DNA from: Acidovorax sp. Leaf160
GTDB lineage: Bacteria; Pseudomonadota; Gammaproteobacteria; Burkholderiales; Burkholderiaceae_C
Reading direction: 5' to 3'
NCBI RefSeq assembly: GCF_001424265.1
Contig: NZ_LMOV01000024.1
Span: 1-64,000, forward strand
Length of the DNA stretch: 64,000 nt
The translations under genes were made by a program, and so were the position numbers. The notes under the pieces were generated by a model. That model was not told where the DNA came from. It did no database searches and saw nothing but the letters and a program-made list of their open reading frames with translations. Of this stretch, positions 35,534 to 44,282 are shown in pieces (the first letter of the stretch is position 1; each line of letters opens with the position of its first letter).

Positions 35534-37978
35534 TCACCGCAGCCTCGCGCCGGTGCGGCGCGACAGCTCCTGCAATGCCGCTTGCACGGCCCCGTCGATC
35601 TCGGCTTCTGTCAGCGAGGCGACGTCGCTGCCCAGGGTCAGCCGCACCGCCAGACTCTTCTCGCCCGCCGCCAGTGCGCCTGCAGACGGCACCTCACCGT
35701 CGCGCAAGGGCTTGGGCCGGAAGACGTCGAACAGCACGGCAGAACGCAGCACGTCGGCAGACACTGCGGAGCGGATGGCGGCCATGACCTCGGCATGGGT
35801 GACTCGCTCGGCGACCACCACCGCGATGTCGCGTTCGGCCGCCTGGTGCTTGGCCACGGCCGAGAACACCGGCACGGGGCGGCGCAGCACGGCTTCCAGG
35901 TCCAGCTCGAAGGCTATAGGCGCCAGCGGCAATCCCCAGGACTGGCGCCATTGCGGGTGCAGCTCGCCAACGTGGCCGATGACTTCTCCGTCCAGCACCA
36001 CTTGCGCACAGCGCCCTGGGTGCATGGCCGGGTGCGTGCCCGGCTCGAAGGTGGCGGCCAGCGGCGCGAGCAGCGCCTGCACGTCTCCCTTGCCGTCGAA
36101 GAAATCGACCGGGGTGGTCTTGGCACTCCATTGCAGCATGTCCGCCGGACCGTAGGCCAGGCCGGCAACGCGCATCGGCTGATGCACACCCGCCACCGTG
36201 GTGTCGCTGTCGACCACAGAGCCGTCGCGCAGGAACACGCGGCCCAGCTCGAACACCCGCACGCGATCGGCCTTGCGGTCCAGATTGAACTTCAACACCT
36301 GCAGCAGCGAGCCCAGCAGCGACGAGCGCATCACGCTCAGCTGGCTGGCGATGGGGTTGAGCAGCTGGATCGGTTGCGCATTGGCCGCGAGATCACGCTC
36401 CCAGGCCGCTTCCACGAAGCTGAAGTTGATGGTTTCCTGATAGCCCAGCGCGGCCAGCTCGCGGCGCACGGCGAAGGCGCTGCGGCGCGATTCGGCCCGC
36501 AGCTTGGGCGTGATGGGTGCGAGCGGCGGCGTCGTGGGCAGCTGCTCGTAGCCGATCATGCGTGCCACTTCTTCGATCAGGTCTTCTTCGATATTGATGT
36601 CGAAGCGGTAGGAAGGCGCCACGACCTGCAGCACACCGCCCTGCGCCGTCACGTCCAGGCCGAGGCGCTCAAGCGCATCGACGCACTGTTCCTGCGTGAG
36701 CGGCATGCCGATGACCTTGGCCGCGCGGGCGACGCGCAGGGTGACGGTCCTGGGCTGGGGGATGTCCAGCACCTGGTCGTCCACCGGGCCACATGCCGTC
36801 TCGGGGGTGCCGCAGATGTCCAGCACCAGCTGCGTGATGCGCTCGATGTGCTCCACCGTGCTCTTCGGATCCACGCCACGCTCGAAACGGTGCCCGGCGT
36901 CGGTCGAGAAGTTGAACCGGCGCGAACGACCAGCCACCGCCTTGGGCCACCAGAAAGCCGCTTCGATGTAGATGTGCCGCGTGTCGTCCGACACCGCAGT
37001 GGCGTCGCCGCCCATGATGCCGGCCAGCGATTCGACGGCCTGCCGGTCGGCGATCACACCGACGGCTCCGTCCACGGTCACCGTGTTGCCGTTGAGCAGC
37101 TTGAGCTGTTCACCCTCACGGCCCCAGCGCACTTCCAGGCCGCCGTCGATCTTGTCCAGATCGAAGATGTGGGAGGGCCGGCCCAATTCAAACATCACGT
37201 AGTTGGAGATGTCCACCAGTGGCGACACGCTGCGCTGCCCGCAACGGGCCAGCCGGTCCACCATCCATTGCGGCGTGGCCACCCGCGTGTTGACGTTGCG
37301 CACCACCCGGCCGGAGAACCGTCCGCACAGGTCGGCGTCGACCACCGCCACGGGAAGGCGCTCCTCCAGTTGCGTCGCCACGGCGGGAAAGCCGGGCGAC
37401 TTCAAGGGCGCGCCAGTCAGCGCGGACAGCTCCCGGGCAATACCGTACACGCTCAGCGCGTGGGCCAGATTGGGCGTGAGCTTCAGGGTGAAAAGCGTGT
37501 CGTCCAGGTCCAGCTGCTCCCGGATGTCACGGCCCGGAACGGCGTCGCCGGCCAGCTCCAGCAGTCCGCCGTGGTCGTCGGCCAGCTGCAATTCCTTGGC
37601 CGAGCACAGCATGCCCTGGCTTTCGACGCCCCGCAGCTTGCCGAGCTTGATCAGGAACGGCTTGCCGTCTTCACCCGGCGGGAGTTCGGCGCCGACCAGC
37701 GCGCACGGCACCTTGATGCCGGCGCGCGCATTCGGGGCGCCACAGACGATGTTCAGCAACACGTCCTGGCCCACGTCGACCTGGCACACACGCAGACGGT
37801 CGGCATTGGGGTGCTGCACGGCCTCCTTGATCTCGCCGACGACGATGCGCGTGAAAGCCGGCGCTACCGGGCGCAGCTCTTCCACTTCGAGGCCCGCCAT
37901 GGTCAGCGTCTCGGCCAGTTCGGCGGTGGTCAGCGGCGGGTTGCAGAACTCGCGCAGCCAGGATTCTGGAAATTGCAT
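35534..37978 (-). CDS. pheT: Phenylalanyl-tRNA synthetase, beta subunit
   Basis: An 814-residue subunit of the (alpha-beta)2 enzyme. It begins with [16 protein letters not shown] and a tRNA-binding/EMAP-like domain ([21 protein letters not shown]). The B3/B4 editing domain lies around 220-390, B5 follows, a catalytic-like domain occupies the middle, and a C-terminal FDX-ACB anticodon domain ([13 protein letters not shown]) ends it. All are complete. It lies 77 bp after pheS and ends 1-22 bp before ihfA, the standard pheS-pheT-ihfA order. Confidence 0.96.
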
Positions 37979-38055: not shown

Positions 38056-39108
38056 TCACTGGAACTGCGTGAGGAAGCGGACGTCGCCGTCGAAGAACAG
38101 GCGCAGGTCGTTGACGCCATAGCGCAGCATGGTCAGCCGGTCGGGGCCCATGCCGAAGGCAAAGCCGATGTAGGTTTCCGGATCCAGGCCCATGTTGCGG
38201 ACCACGTTCGGGTGCACCTGGCCGGAGCCGGCCACTTCCAGCCAGCGGCCGGCGAGCGGTCCGGTCTGGAATTGGATGTCGATCTCGGCACTGGGCTCGG
38301 TGAACGGAAAGAAGCTGGGCCGAAAGCGCAGCACCAGGTCATCGCTCTCGAAGAAGGTGCGGCAGAACGCCGTGAACACGACCTTCAGGTCCTTGAAGCT
38401 CACGTTCTCGCCGATCCACAGGCCTTCGCACTGGTGGAACATCGGCGAATGGGTGGCGTCACTGTCGACGCGGTAGGTGCGGCCGGGCGCGATGACGCGG
38501 ATCTCGGGCATGCCCTGCCCTGCATCGATCTTCGCGCGATGGCGCTTGACGTGCTGCATCGCGTGGCGCACCTGCATGGGACTGGTGTGGGTGCGCAGCA
38601 GGTGCGGCGCATCGGGGGTGCCACCTTCCACGTAGAAGGTGTCGTGCATGGAGCGCGCGGGATGATCCTGCGGCGTGTTGAGCGCGGTGAAGTTGAACCA
38701 GTCGGTCTCGATCTCGGGGCCCTCGGCCACCTCGAAACCCATCGAGCCGAAGATCTGCTCGATCCGCTCGAGCGTGAGCGTGACGGGGTGCAGGCCACCC
38801 CGGCCCCGTTGGCGTCCTGGCAGGCTCACGTCCAGCGCCTCGGCCTTGAGCTGGAGCTGCAGTTCCGCATCGGCCAGCGCCTGGCGGCGGTCGGTCAGTG
38901 CCGCTTCCACGGCCTGCTTGGCCAGGTTGATCGCAGCGCCGCGCGACTTCTTCTCTTCCACCGTCAGCTGCGCCATGCCTTTCATGAGGTCGGTCAGGCG
39001 GCCGGACTTGCCCAGAAACTGCGCCTTGGCGTTTTCCAGATCAGCAGGGGTTGTGCTTTGCGCGAACAGTTGCCGCGCGCTCTCGACCAGGGAATCCAGC
39101 TCGTTCAT
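38056..39108 (-). CDS. pheS: Phenylalanyl-tRNA synthetase, alpha subunit
   Basis: A 350-residue catalytic subunit. The N-terminal coiled coil (about 1-85) contacts tRNA. Class-II motif 2 is in [23 protein letters not shown], and motif 3 is [25 protein letters not shown]. The phenylalanine pocket segment [16 protein letters not shown] is intact. No strong Shine-Dalgarno precedes the ATG. Between rplT and pheS there is a repeat-derived hairpin with a terminator-like U-rich tail, so pheST may be less expressed than rplT. Confidence 0.96.
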
Positions 39109-39125
39109 ATCGACTCGTGAAAATA

Positions 39126-39199
39126 AACAAGGGCTAGTGCCTTTTCAAGCTCTAGCCCTTGTTGTTAGTGCGCAGACTGCTATCTATTCAGTAGCAGTC
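39126..39199 (-). repeat. GCTAT-type intergenic repeat copy with terminator-like hairpin between rplT and pheS
   Basis: Two stems on the transcribed strand. The first is the perfect GACTGCTA-N9-TAGCAGTC (39175-39199). The second is a 12-bp stem AACAAGGGCTAG-N14-CTAGCCCTTGTT (39126-39163) followed by TATTTT. The pair is collinear with the repeat at 40624-40690. The second stem should work as a partial terminator inside the operon. No phenylalanine-rich leader peptide was found in the 100 bases. Confidence 0.7.
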
Positions 39200-39209
39200 G
39201 ACCGTGAAC

Positions 39210-39569
39210 TCAAGCAGCCAGCTTGGCCTTGACTTGTTCCACGATGCTGCCGAAGGCAGCCTTGTCGTGCACCGCGAGGTCGGCCAGCATCTTGCGGTCG
39301 ATCTCGATGGAAGCCTTCTTCAGGCCGTTCGTGAACTGGCTGTAGGTCAGGCCCAGTTCGCGCGAAGCGGCGTTGATACGGGCGATCCACAGTTGGCGGA
39401 ACACGCGCTTCTTGGTGCGGCGGTCACGGTAGGCATATTGCCCAGCCTTCATCACCGCCTGCTTGGCGATGCGGAAGACATTACCGCGGCGACCACGGAA
39501 ACCCTTGGCGAGGGCTAGAACTTTCTTGTGACGGGCACGGGCCGTTACACCACGTTTGACGCGAGGCAT
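39210..39569 (-). CDS. rplT: 50S ribosomal protein L20
   Basis: A 119-residue ribosomal protein essential for early 50S assembly and, in many bacteria, repressor of its own operon. It has the classic [18 protein letters not shown] start, a long basic N-terminal helix and the globular C-terminal part with [17 protein letters not shown]. It lies 26 bp after rpmI. A reader of the opposite strand would also see open frames here, but the protein sequence is unmistakable. Confidence 0.97.
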
Positions 39570-40004: not shown

Positions 40005-40607
40005 TCAGGCCGCCGGAGCGGCGCTGCCTGCGGCCTCGCCCGCAGGCTTGGCTGCCGCAGGCTTCTTGCGGCCTGGCGCGATCATCATGATCATCTGGCG
40101 CCCTTCGAGCTTGGGGAATTGCTCCACCAGGATCGTGTCGCCCAGATCGTCACGGATGCGGTTCAACAGTGCCAGCCCCAGTTCCTGGTGGGTAATTTCC
40201 CGTCCACGGAACCGCAGCGTGATCTTGCACTTGTCACCTTCCGCCAGGAAGCGGCGGATGTTGCGCATCTTGATGTTGTAGTCGCCGTCGTCGGTACCGG
40301 GACGGAACTTCACTTCCTTGATTTCGATGACCGTCTGCTTGGCCTTGGCCTCCGCCGCGCGCTTTTGTTCAAGGTACTTGAACTTGCCGTAATCCATGAG
40401 GCGGCAAACGGGGGGGCTGGCCGTGGCGGCAATCTCCACCAGGTCCACATCCAACTCGCCCGCCATGCGGAGAGCTTCCATGAGGCTCACAACACCCAAA
40501 GGCTCGTTGTCAGGACCCGAGAGGCGGACCTCAGGGGCCATGATTTCCCGGTTCAGGCGGTGCTTGCGCTCTTCACGGTGGCGACGATCACGAAATTCAG
40601 TAGCGAT
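40005..40607 (-). CDS. infC: Translation initiation factor IF-3, ATC start codon
   Basis: A 200-residue IF-3 that controls start-codon fidelity. Conventional gene calls begin at the ATG 40541, but 22 conserved codons lie before it ([22 protein letters not shown]). They begin with ATC at 40607, eight bases after AAGGA, and an in-frame TGA closes the frame just beyond. E. coli infC uses AUU so that IF-3 can repress its own translation; ATC here would serve the same loop. The N-domain, Lys-rich linker and C-domain (MMIAPGRKK) are complete. The Ala-rich tail is usual in the group. Confidence 0.92.
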
Positions 40608-40692: not shown

Positions 40693-42612
40693 TCAAGCTT
40701 TAGAGGCGATATCTTCTGCGATGAGCGCGACGAACGCTTCGAGAGACATCACACCGAGGTCTCGATTGCCTCGGGCGCGCACTGCGACGGCGCCGGCTGC
40801 CTTTTCCTTCTCGCCTGCGACGAGGATGTAAGGCAGCTTTTGCAACGAATGCTCGCGTATTTTATACGTGATCTTTTCGTTACGCAGATCGGTCACGACT
40901 CTAAGGCCTTGATTCGGCAATGCTTTTTGAAGCTTTGCAGCAATTTCGCGACAGTATTCGTCCTGCGCGCCCGTGATGTTGAGCACCGCGACCTGCACCG
41001 GCGCCAGCCACGTGGGCAGTGCGCCAGCGTGCTGTTCGATCAGGATGCCGATGAATCGTTCCAGGCTGCCGACGATCGCGCGGTGCAGCACGATGGGGGT
41101 GTGGCGCGCACCGTCTTCGCCCACATATTCGGCGCCCAGCCGCTCGGGCATCGACGGATCGACCTGGATCGTGCCGCACTGCCAGTGGCGGCCGATGGCG
41201 TCACGCAGCGTGTACTCCAGCTTCGGGCCGTAGAAGGCGCCGTCGCCCACCGCGATCTGGTAGTCGCAACCCGAGGCCTTCAGGCTTTCGATCAGCGCGT
41301 TCTCGGCCTTGTCCCAGCTTTCTTCCGAACCGATGCGTTTCTCGGGCCGCGTGGCGACCTTGTAGATGATGTCGGTGAAGCCGAAGTCCTTGTAGACCTT
41401 CTGCAGCAGTGCCGTGAAGTTGATGCATTCCTGCTGGATCTGGTCTTCCGTGCAGAAGATGTGGCCATCGTCCTGGGTGAAGGCGCGCACGCGCATGATG
41501 CCGTGCAGGCCGCCCGTGGGCTCGTTGCGGTGGCATTGACCGAACTCGCCGAAGCGCAGCGGCAGATCGCGGTAGCTCTTCACCCCCTGGTTGAAGATCA
41601 GGATGTGGCCCGGGCAGTTCATCGGCTTGAGCGCGTAGTCGTGCTTTTCGCTCTCCGTCGTGAACATGTTCTCGCGGTACTTGTCCCAGTGGCCGGTCTT
41701 CTCCCACAGATGCTTGTCGAGGATCTGCGGGCCCTTCACCTCCTGGTAGCCGTTGTCGCGGTAGACCTGGCGCATGTACTGCTCCACGCCCTGCCACACC
41801 GTCCAGCCCTTGGGGTGCCAGAAGACGGTGCCCGGCGAATACTCGTCGATGTGGAACAGGTCGAGCTCGCGGCCCAGCTTGCGGTGGTCACGCTTCTCGG
41901 CTTCCTCGATGCGCTGGATGTAGGCGTCCAGGTCCTTCTTGTCGGCCCAGGCCGTGCCGTAGATGCGCTGCAGCTGCTCGTTCTTCGCATCGCCGCGCCA
42001 GTAGGCGCCCGACACGCGGGTGAGCTTGAACGCCTTCAGGAAGCGCGTGTTCGGCACGTGCGGGCCGCGGCACATGTCCACGTATTCCTGATGGTAGTAA
42101 AGACCCATGGCGGTCTCATCGGGCATGTCCTCGATCAGCCGCAGCTTGTACGCCTCGCCGCGCGACTTGAAGACTTCGATCACCTCCGCGCGCGGCGTCA
42201 TCTTCTTGATGACGTCGTAGTCGAGCGCGATCAGCTCCTTCATGCGCTGCTCGATGGCGGCCATGTCTTCGGGCGTGAAAGGCCGCTCGAAGGCGATGTC
42301 GTAGTAGAAGCCCTCTTCGATCACCGGACCGATCACCATGCGGGCGGTCGGATAGAGCTGCTTGACGGCATGCCCCACCAAGTGCGCGCAGGAGTGACGA
42401 ATGATTTCCACCCCTTCCTGGTCGCGCGGCGTGATGATCTGCAGGCGTGCGTCGTGGTCGATGAGGTCGCTGGCATCCACCAGCTTGCCATCCACTTTGC
42501 CGGCCACCGTGATCTTGGCCAGACCGGGGCCGATGGAGCGGGCCACTTCGGACACCGTGACCGGGCCGGGGAATTCGCGCTGGGAGTTGTCGGGAAGCGT
42601 GATCTGAATCAT
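40693..42612 (-). CDS. thrS: Threonyl-tRNA synthetase
   Basis: A 639-residue class-II synthetase. It has an N-terminal TGS domain (1-60), the N2 editing domain with [11 protein letters not shown] and a later Cys/His set, and the catalytic core with motif 2 in [20 protein letters not shown]-like sequence. Zinc ligands occur in MNCPGH and nearby His, and the C-terminal domain is the anticodon-binding one. The ATG at 42612 (MIQITLP) has AGGA seven bases upstream; an upstream ATG at 42633 would add seven atypical residues. It heads the thrS-infC-rpmI-rplT-pheST-ihfA operon and lies behind the attenuator described separately. Confidence 0.97.
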
Positions 42613-42660
42613 TCGAAAATCCTGTTCGTCCATTCATCCGGAAGAGCCCGCGCAACGCCC

Positions 42661-42696
42661 GAAAGCAAAAAGCGCGGAACATGCGTCCGCGCTTTT
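42661..42696 (-). terminator. Intrinsic terminator in the thrS leader (attenuator helix 3:4)
   Basis: On the transcribed strand there is an 11-bp perfect stem AAAAGCGCGGA / TCCGCGCTTTT with a seven-base loop, followed by TGCTTTC. It lies 49 bases before the thrS ATG and after the putative leader peptide, so unless prevented it would stop transcription before thrS. Its 5' arm can instead pair with 42728-42736. Confidence 0.85.
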
Positions 42697-42780
42697 GGAT
42701 GGAAGGTGCAGCAATGGGTGTGTGCAGGCGCGAACGTCCAGCCTTTACAGGCCGGTGGATGGCTCCGATGTAGTTCGCGG
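42684..42780 (-). promoter_or_regulatory. thrS attenuator: competing helices 1:2 and 2:3
   Basis: Segment 1 is CGCGAAC (42773-42779, inside leader codons 3-5). Segment 2 is CGUUCGCGC (42728-42736, just after the leader stop). Segment 3 is GCGCGGACG (42684-42692, the 5' arm of the terminator). Segments 1 and 2 pair over 7 bp without mismatch. Segments 2 and 3 pair over 9 bp with one G-U. Segments 3 and 4 form the terminator. A ribosome stalled at the Thr codons would mask segment 1 and free segment 2 to block termination. A ribosome at the stop codon would cover segment 2 and favour termination. All this is inference from base-pairing. Confidence 0.8.
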
Positions 42781-42786
42781 TGTCAT
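42745..42786 (-). CDS. Putative thrS leader peptide, threonine-rich (MTPRTTSEPSTGL)
   Basis: A 13-residue frame with threonine at positions 2, 5, 6 and 11 (ACA, ACT, ACA, ACC), two of them adjacent. AAAGG lies ten bases before the ATG. A weak -10 (TTAAAAT, 42829-42835) lies about 43 bases upstream. The stop is eight bases before attenuator segment 2. Its size, codon bias and position match leader peptides of attenuated operons such as E. coli pheM before pheST. The product itself is not expected to have a function. Confidence 0.75.
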   Translation of the reverse strand: MTPRTTSEPSTGL

Positions 42787-42885
42787 AACCAGATTGCCTT
42801 TCTCGCCCTTGTGCGTTGAGATCGGGGGATTTTAACCCGTCCCGCCGCCGACCCCACACCTCGGGTCGCCGCCGCCCCGAATGAC

Positions 42886-42911
42886 GAAGCCCGGCACTGG
42901 CCGGGCTTCCG
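42886..42911. terminator. Hairpin between aceA and the thrS promoter
   Basis: A 10-bp stem GAAGCCCGGC / GCCGGGCTTC with a four-base loop, 40 bases after the aceA stop. No U-run follows on the minus strand, so it is a weak candidate for the aceA terminator. It also insulates the thrS promoter region (42790-42885), in which no further gene is seen. Confidence 0.5.
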
Positions 42912-42950
42912 TGGCACGGACGGCACCTGGGCCGCCTAAAGCTCGGCAGA

Positions 42951-44282
42951 TCAGTGGAACTGCTCTTCTTCGGTGGACCCCGTCAGCGCCTTCACGCTGG
43001 AGGAGCCGCCCTGGATCACGGTGGTCACGTCGTCGAAATAACCCGCGCCCACCTCTTGCTGGTGCGACACGAAGGTGTAGCCCTTTTCGCGCGCTGCGAA
43101 TTCGGGTTCCTGCACCATTTCGGTGTAGTGCTTCATGCCTTCGCCGCGAGCATAGGCATGGGCAAACTGGAACGTGTTGTACCAGTTGATGTGAATGCCG
43201 GCCAGCGTGATGAACTGGTACTTGTAGCCCAGTGCGGACAGATCTTCCTGGAACGACGCGATCTGCTTTTCATTGAGGTTCTTCTTCCAGTTGAAGGAAG
43301 GCGAGCAGTTGTAGCTCAGCAGCTTGCCCGGGCAGGCGGCATGCACGGCCTGCGCGAATTCGCGGGCAAAGCCGATGTCGGGCACGCCGGTTTCGCACCA
43401 CACCAGATCGGCGTAGGGGGCGTAGGCCACGCCGCGGCTGATGGCTTGTTCCAGGCCGTTCTTCACGCGGTAGAAGCCTTCCTGCGTGCGCTCGCCCGTC
43501 AGGAAGGGCTTGTCGTTGGCATCGTGGTCGGACGTGATCAGGTTGGCGGCTTCCGCGTCGGTGCGGGCCAGGATGATGGTCGGCACGCCCATGGTGTCGG
43601 CGGCGAAGCGCGCGGCCAGCAGCTTTTCGATGGCTTCCTGGGTGGGCACCAGCACCTTGCCGCCCATGTGGCCGCACTTCTTGACCGCAGCGAGCTGGTC
43701 TTCGAAGTGAACGCCGGCAGCCCCGGCAGCGATCATGTTCTTCATCAGCTCGAAGGCGTTCAGCACGCCGCCGAAGCCGGCTTCCGCGTCCGCCACGATG
43801 GGCAGGAAGTAGTCGATGAACTCCTTGTCGCCCGGGTTCACGCCGCGGCCCCACTGGATTTCGTCAGCGCGCTTGAAGGTGTTGTTGATGCGGCGGACCA
43901 TGGTGGGCACCGAGTCGTAGGCGTACAGCGACTGGTCGGGATACATGGTTTCGGAGGTATTGCCGTCGGCAGCCACCTGCCAGCCCGACAGGTACACCGC
44001 TTCCAGACCTGCCTTGGCCTGCTGCATGGCCTGGCCGGCGGAGATGGCACCAAAGGCATTCACGTAGCCCTTCTTGGCGCCGCCGTTGATCTTGTCCCAG
44101 AGCTTTTCCGCGCCGCGCTGCGCATAGGTGTGCTCTGGCTGCACGCTGCCGCGCAGGCGCACCACGTCGGCCGCGGAATAGTTGCGCTTCACGCCCTTCC
44201 AGCGCGGGTTCTGAGCCCAATCGAGTTCAAGGGCTGCGATCTGTTGTTCACGGCTCAGTTGGGCGTTCAGCGATTGGGGCAT
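42951..44282 (-). CDS. aceA: Isocitrate lyase
   Basis: A 443-residue glyoxylate-shunt enzyme that splits isocitrate into glyoxylate and succinate, allowing growth on acetate and fatty acids. It has the catalytic loop [16 protein letters not shown] (active Cys in KKCGH), the WCETGVPD substrate residues, and C-terminal [16 protein letters not shown]. The ATG at 44282 follows GGAG. An in-frame ATG 28 codons upstream gives a leader unlike the family. Malate synthase is not adjacent. Its promoter carries two palindromes, described separately. Confidence 0.96.

Follow-up and report, generated by a model that had tools for sequence, protein, structure and literature searches.

A putative threonine leader-peptide attenuator in front of thrS in Acidovorax sp. 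Leaf160 and other Burkholderiales

Ribosome-mediated transcription attenuators are known in Escherichia coli for the trp, his and thrABC operons and for pheST, whose leader is pheM, while T-box leaders are another means by which synthetase genes are controlled by tRNA charging. Then, could the threonyl-tRNA synthetase (ThrRS) gene thrS be controlled by a leader peptide? A 2010 paper by Lopatovskaya, Seliverstov and Lyubetsky, whose title reportedly covers aminoacyl-tRNA operons, may already predict a thrS attenuator. Our literature search on thrS leader peptides and attenuation found, within the collection of papers covered, no description for the group studied here, in agreement with a preliminary description of the locus, which knew of no threonine leader for thrS in Comamonadaceae. 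That statement has to be confined to the group, as a short Thr-containing ORF, thrL, has been proposed as a thrS leader peptide in Streptomyces lividans (PMC8079986). According to the accessible part of that source, its peptide, MKRVRPFLETTPGFVPAR, has a leaderless start and no U-rich tract, and termination is unclear (PMC8079986). In E. coli, the thrS operator is described, in the available parts of two papers, as a tRNA mimic that is bound by ThrRS, with repression of translation (PMC9976931, PMC3858243). As far as their accessible text goes, Naville and Gautheret (2010; PMC2965389) name threonyl-tRNA synthetase just as the E. coli case of autoregulation, and Korolev et al. (2016; PMC4833913) treat leader genes in general.

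Here, we explore the region upstream of thrS in Acidovorax sp. Leaf160, within a window of 64,000 nt (the whole stretch of DNA that was analysed), together with the corresponding regions of related genomes. Based on sequence comparison, we suggest, with a probability of roughly 85%, that it contains a transcription attenuator operated by a translating ribosome, of the same type as those of trp, his and pheST, which would sense charged tRNA-Thr and control thrS. The features are listed in Table 1. As had been described, thrS comes first and is followed by the genes for IF-3, L35, L20 and PheRS; these identities were borne out by Pfam (L35 by eye), and it is presumed that thrS-infC-rpmI-rplT-pheST form one transcript whose genes would respond together.

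Table 1. Features of the thrS leader and neighbouring genes in the window of Acidovorax sp. Leaf160.
Feature	Position	Strand	Basis
TAAAAT, likely -10 box in the promoter for the thrS leader	42829..42834	-	Direct reading and enrichment across leaders
Shine-Dalgarno-like AGAAAGG of the leader ORF	42797..42803	-	Ten bases between AGAAAGG and ATG
Possible GGU-UAUGAC-ACC hairpin, leader start codon in loop	42779..42790	-	RNAalifold on A1 alignment
Leader peptide ORF MTPRTTSEPSTGL	42745..42786	-	ATG 42786-42784, stop TAA 42747-42745
Segment 1 CGCGAAC, codons 3-5	42773..42779	-	Direct reading, duplex analyses
Inner hairpin CCGGCC/GGCTGG, stop codon in loop, part of 1:2 structure	42738..42755	-	Compensatory changes in A2
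Segment 2 GTTCGCGC, may pair with segment 1 or segment 3	42728..42735	-	Duplex analyses, constrained folds, A2 pair counts
Segment 3 AAAAGCGCGGACG, 5' arm of terminator and partner of segment 2	42684..42696	-	Direct reading, duplex fits, A2 pair counts
Segment 4 TCCGCGCTTTT (42668..42678) with U-tract to 42667, intrinsic terminator	42667..42678	-	Direct reading, A1, A2 pair counts
thrS, threonyl-tRNA synthetase, first gene of presumed operon	40693..42612	-	ORF; ATG 42612; Pfam class II core, TGS, tRNA_SAD and anticodon-binding domains
infC (IF-3)	40005-40541	-	ORF, Pfam IF3
L35-like frame (rpmI)	between infC and rplT	-	Recognised by eye in translation
rplT (L20)	39210-39569	-	ORF, Pfam L20
pheS	38056-39108	-	ORF, Pfam PheRS chain
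pheT	35534-37978	-	ORF, Pfam PheRS chain

The leader ORF, the four segments and the U-tract were all confirmed by direct reading at the positions given in the preliminary description. The ORF has 13 codons, with Thr at 2, 5, 6 and 11, and the pairings 1:2, 2:3 and 3:4 are all present in the window, with one G-U pair in 2:3. A simple pattern scan of 42300-43200 reported neither a terminator nor a sigma-70 promoter, probably because the U-tract pairs with an A-tract and no -35 box fits. For Rfam, the single match in the window at the gathering score is a tRNA elsewhere, with no family at the leader, and at an E value of 10 the region around the leader gave a chance microRNA match alone. A T-box was thus rejected, since none was matched at either level, despite a T-box-like TGG and ACCGCG. 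For the window, the idea that the hairpin ends transcription of the isocitrate-lyase-like gene lying upstream (Pfam ICL) was rejected, because that gene is followed by a separate hairpin at about 42880-42910, with the TAAAAT box between the two, as seen by eye.

A side observation concerns the gap between rplT and pheS, where a strong terminator-like hairpin, AACAAGGGCTAG...CTAGCCCTTGTT, followed by TATTTT, is found at 39120-39163 on the minus strand, in the place that pheM occupies in E. coli. A hairpin of -10 kcal/mol or stronger before a T-run is present in this gap in 64/65 relatives, and Phe-rich small ORFs occur in 9/65, none being visible by eye in the window.

The element is widespread in the family of the window, a Comamonadaceae-like group whose named ThrS relatives include Comamonas, Acidovorax, Variovorax and Hylemonella. 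The motif GGTNATGRCACCGCGRAC was found in 105/130 family genomes (102/126 genera), with a single match per genome, and is absent from the other 25; the reversed pattern had no match in the same 130 genomes. This search covered about one genome per genus, and the thrS context was read in sampled loci. Among 80 named thrS loci, at least two of which (L074 and L076) belong to Lysobacterales or Luteimonas, outside the family, the strict MTPRT pattern occurs in 56 and a looser one in 58. An MTPRT pattern is also carried by 65 of 80 thrS upstream regions from further family genomes, which are mostly one per genus and come from the better-scoring part of the matches listed. A hairpin with a T-run is present in 124/124 regions having the leader motif, and the Shine-Dalgarno columns GAAAGGCA are mostly at least 90% conserved in A1. 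In addition, of 119 distinct leaders, 103 have a TANNNT between 80 and 28 nt upstream of their ATG, compared with 47.0 in shuffled sequences, and the exact TAAAAT is found in 41/119 leaders compared with 3/1140 control windows in thrS coding sequence. The preliminary description had made its proposal depend on conservation of the Thr codons and of the 2:3 pairing in relatives. Both comparisons came out in its favour: Thr codons, a stop near segment 2, Shine-Dalgarno sequence, terminator and alternative pairings are found again in the majority of the family members sampled.

The two family sets also contain 22/80 and 15/80 regions without a leader. A CGCGG/CCGCG hairpin with a T-run is retained in 18 of these 37, often 33-38 nt past a TAAAAT-like box; therefore, the hairpin may serve another use. 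Leaderless loci with a terminator-like hairpin soon after a TAAAAT-like box were seen, for example, in L028, L038, L060, L079, L119 and L146. As a separate observation, the within-family identity of the N-terminal 306 residues of ThrS is bimodal among the matches listed, being either 83-100% or at most 67%. The leader accompanies both types, and in-place replacement of the gene with the leader kept is possible. Two other searches were set aside. A terminator-spacing pattern, found in 10/12 family genomes and 2/387 others of the order (both probably by chance), was too narrow and missed the L201 leader, and a two-mismatch motif search was too noisy, the reversed control often matching, and was superseded by the search of 130 genomes.

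The element is not confined to the Comamonadaceae-like genomes; a related leader occurs elsewhere in the order. In 79 genomes from other families of Burkholderiales, we inspected 80 regions upstream of thrS, using a strict rule (a short ORF with in-frame CGA-AC, i.e., Arg-Thr, within the first nine codons) that was chosen after viewing the first 40 sequences. Such a leader is present in 27/80 regions, compared with a mean of 4.1 and a maximum of 11 in shuffles and with 4 on the reverse strand. Examples are MFRTCTTTWC, MFKRTTTTRISR, MQLNRTTTTS and MTPRTTTWLWENR. CGA is followed by ACT in 21 leaders, by ACG in 4 and by ACA in 2, and Thr makes up 38 of 195 residues after the Arg-Thr pair (vs. 14.6). 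A terminator was found in 25/27; a few of the 27 are probably chance matches, among them L222 and L211, which have no terminator. For the 25 leaders with a terminator, the 2:3 pairing is significant jointly (Fisher p 5e-5; 5/25 alone) and 1:2 is weak (Fisher p 0.02; 2/25 at p<=0.05). The CGA-AC leader is absent from the other 53/80 regions, although three of them (L196, L217 and L218) contain short ORFs that bear Thr and have a different codon in the Arg position. A loose search for Arg-Thr only (16/40 vs. 11.3 in shuffles) was uninformative and was dropped. In 20 of the 27 leader regions (among L195-L274), ARAGORN identified a tRNA-Val(GAC) gene, and in those loci the terminator of the attenuator may also serve to end transcription of that tRNA gene.

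Other orders of the class differ. From the best-scoring of 93 matching genomes outside the order, with L280 set aside as belonging to the window's own family, 28 regions were obtained, and the CGA-AC leader occurs in 0/28; shuffling of 29 regions gives an expectation of 1.1. An E. coli-type operator, TCGTR...YCACCAC, is present in 9/28 of them and in 0/240 family and order regions, and a looser TCGT hairpin in 14/28 vs. 6/240. The 240 regions are the two family sets plus the order set, L074 and L076 from elsewhere included, and the pattern (TCGTR loop, YCACCAC arm before the start) was written after the other-order sequences had been seen. The same arrangement precedes thrS in E. coli (GTGATCTTTCGTGTGGGTCACCAC). 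An operator of this type was rejected for the 240 regions of the window's family and order. Among L276-L304, hairpins like GTGGTCTCTCGTA...ATCACCAC occur just before thrS and resemble the E. coli ThrRS operator, and L292 seems by eye to have more than one copy. From these distributions we infer that, early in the order to which the window belongs, a leader peptide took the place of the operator, which suggests that one gene, thrS, is under two unrelated controls in neighbouring groups.

Past MTPRT, the family leaders vary in sequence and are mostly 11-22 codons long, L030 stopping after codon 5. Thr accounts for 246 of 1178 in-frame residues past codon 5, compared with 85 ± 8 in shuffled sequences (118 distinct leaders; L111, whose frame has no nearby stop, was dropped), and for 25/1178 and 29/1178 in the other two frames, which argues that selection acts on the leader as a reading frame. 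The first codons are nearly constant, as ACA CCG CGA AC(U/G) takes up codons 2-5 in almost all of the 119 distinct leaders: codon 2 is ACA in 118, codon 4 is CGA in 117, and codon 5 is ACT in 105 or ACG in 14. In 57 thrS genes, ACA, CGA and ACU make up just 3.3%, 3.2% and 4.4% of their codon families and ACG 55.7%; ACC, with 36.6% of Thr codons, is yet never used at leader codons 2 and 5. In the pattern used for the search, GGT and ATG were set, as were bases one and two of codons 2, 4 and 5, and codon 3 could end in G or C only. The third bases of codons 2, 4 and 5 were free, so their constancy carries weight. The role given to the Thr codons in the preliminary description needs an amendment: Thr2 is replaceable (MAPRT in L175 and L178), and the near-fixed core is CGA plus a Thr codon. 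This constancy may partly serve the 1:2 pairing and the GGU/ACC hairpin at the start codon, which do not account for CGA-ACU being usual outside the family. The 1:2 pairing alone is insufficient to explain why CGA is kept, as CGA remains the common codon in the leaders of other families, whose 1:2 pairing is weak.

The same codons bring up another explanation, in which the leader is a general sensor of slow translation and any stalled or slow ribosome (at the rare CGA or ACU, under Arg starvation or with inhibitors) would act, not loss of Thr-tRNA alone. Arg4 and its rare codon are indeed fixed like the Thr codons, and outside the family CGA is used in 21/24 Arg-Thr short ORFs with at least two Thr. 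However, Thr tops the variable part, ahead of Gly (139), Ser (127) and Arg (119), and the controlled gene is thrS, so we consider this explanation improbable. As for the reading in which charged tRNA-Thr is sensed, a speculative extension, more doubtful than not by a good deal, is that the CGA-AC(U/G) pair is itself the sensor. The inosine-adenine wobble of CGA in the P site would slow the next Thr codon and make it hypersensitive to the loss of Thr-tRNA, and the pair would have been kept at the nucleotide level through the order-wide replacement of the ThrRS operator by the leader peptide. At any rate, with this rare and almost invariant codon pair it can be tested whether codon context, beyond codon identity, tunes attenuation.

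The alternative pairings were assessed with anchored duplexes and with alignment A2, which superseded consensus folding of A1, where the start-codon hairpin and the terminator were found and neither 1:2 nor 2:3. For 118 leaders, the mean duplex energies are -12.2 kcal/mol for 1:2 and -16.5 kcal/mol for 2:3, compared with -9.3 and -13.9 kcal/mol in dinucleotide shuffles. Swapped partners match these strengths in 0 (1:2) and 0.3% (2:3) of 2000 permutations, in which relatedness is not removed. Singly, 55/118 leaders reach p<=0.05 for 1:2 and 26/118 for 2:3. The partner sites of segments 1 and 3 overlap by at least 3 bases in 101/118 leaders. The 2:3 pair beside the core is CG in 107 fits, TA in 5 and TG in 4, best-register duplex fits being of a kind that favours pairing.

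A2 consists of 33 leaders chosen because [TG]TCGCG follows their ATG at a constant spacing, so that the constancy of segment 2 is partly by construction. In its stop-codon hairpin, 90.9% of cells are paired and both sides change at one pair that is GC, AU or CG and at another that is GC or CG; this hairpin is the source of all 6 two-sided-change cells of the 1:2 structure. The position of segment 2 just past the stop codon holds as previously described, the stop lying close before segment 2, with the refinement that the stop codon itself sits in a hairpin with compensatory changes. The covariation score of the whole 1:2 structure is reached by 0/500 shuffles and its two-sided pair count by 17/500; the 1:2 pairing proper cannot covary because segment 1 hardly varies. 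For 2:3, the corresponding values are 2/500 and 249/500. Its pair 57:109 is UA in 25, GC in 3 and UG in 2, while the other 3 leaders have it broken; column 109 shows covariation with segment 4 as well, and the remaining pairs are invariant or one G-U apart and hence uninformative. For 3:4, the values are 0/500 and 330/500.

Constrained folds were computed for 10 hand-picked leaders of the 119. The terminator forms in 10/10 as naked RNA and in 10/10 with a ribosome at the stop. When the ribosome is stalled at codon 5 before segment 4 has been transcribed, 2:3 forms in 7/10, the window included, and fails in L067, L143 and L029; in the full RNA at equilibrium it wins just 2/10. A ribosome at the stop still leaves 2:3-like pairing in 2/10 as long as segment 4 is unmade. 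Since 2:3 is mostly lost once segment 4 is present, the switch would have to be kinetic and depend on timing, and classical attenuators are likewise kinetic switches.

Another way to set termination would be for ThrRS to bind the leader RNA as in E. coli, where, according to the accessible part of the source, it binds its own mRNA (PMC9976931), the ORF being secondary. The possible GGU-loop-ACC hairpin around the leader start codon, which is nearly fixed, would suit such binding. RNAalifold found this hairpin on A1, where one pair is broken in 2/58 (L030 and L051), which counts against it; L175, L176 and L178 have loop changes only, L177 breaks one other pair, and invariance in A2 leaves it with no covariation support. 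Against binding by ThrRS speak the missing E. coli-type operator pattern in the 240 regions, the enrichment of Thr codons in frame only, and the way in which the stop position follows segment 2. The 2:3 partner begins a median 6 nt past the first base of the stop (118 leaders), and starts 0-20 nt past the stop in 80/118, compared with 44 expected if evenly placed; in L144, L148, L150, L157 and L158 (5/119), just 21-31 nt separate the stop from the terminator core and the ORF enters the segment-2 region. Binding by ThrRS is consequently very improbable. That the nascent MTPRT is an arrest peptide, stalling the ribosome upon a small molecule, is hardly credible, for although MTPRT is near-invariant in the family (as the search pattern itself favours), third codon positions that a peptide would not need are fixed too, MAPRT and, outside the family, varied residues before R-T occur, and five residues barely enter the exit tunnel.

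Attenuation by a threonine leader peptide in front of thrS, as put forward in the preliminary description, is therefore the reading that comparison across the family and the order favours. The element has an observed anatomy, with conserved parts and overlapping alternative pairings, and rises above chance in conservation, in-frame Thr enrichment, duplex energies against shuffles and pair counts. The features of an attenuator can be recognised: an ORF with its own conserved ribosome binding site and predicted translation, regulatory codons in frame, a terminator between the ORF and thrS, an antiterminator (2:3) that is computationally exclusive with the terminator, and, within the family, a protector (1:2) that overlaps the regulatory codons and is weak outside. 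We infer that RNA polymerase would start about 35-40 nt upstream of the leader ORF and be followed by a ribosome translating the Thr-containing leader. With ample Thr-tRNA, the ribosome would reach the stop or leave, so that 1:2 forms or segment 2 is covered; segments 3 and 4 would then form the terminator, and thrS would stay untranscribed. With scarce Thr-tRNA, the ribosome would stall at the Thr codons over segment 1, segment 2 would already be paired with segment 3 by the time segment 4 emerges, and the polymerase would enter thrS, with readthrough probably extending into infC-rpmI-rplT-pheST. This provides a testable account of the control of threonyl-tRNA synthetase, and possibly of IF-3, L35, L20 and PheRS too. 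Its points of interest are its breadth, the rare codon pair that has stayed fixed, and the contrast with neighbouring orders in which an operator is found.

Compared with known systems, the Acidovorax thrS leader resembles T-boxes in the control by tRNA charging and differs in having no match to the T-box covariance model of Rfam. The E. coli operator, whose pattern is missing here, controls the same gene, and in the available parts of the sources no leader ORF is described for it (PMC9976931, PMC3858243). In S. lividans (Actinobacteria), a Thr leader before thrS has already been proposed, and thrL, as far as it is presented in the accessible part of the source, has no evident likeness to the MTPRT leaders (PMC8079986). 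The thrS attenuator belongs to a known class, sharing with E. coli trp, his, thrABC and pheM-pheST a leader ORF with regulatory codons, segments 1-4 and a terminator/antiterminator switch. The likeness is closest to pheST, in which a synthetase gene also lies downstream of the leader. Unlike in these E. coli attenuators, a threonine leader here precedes thrS, stands at the head of thrS-infC-rpmI-rplT-pheST, and carries the near-invariant codons ACA, CGA and ACU.
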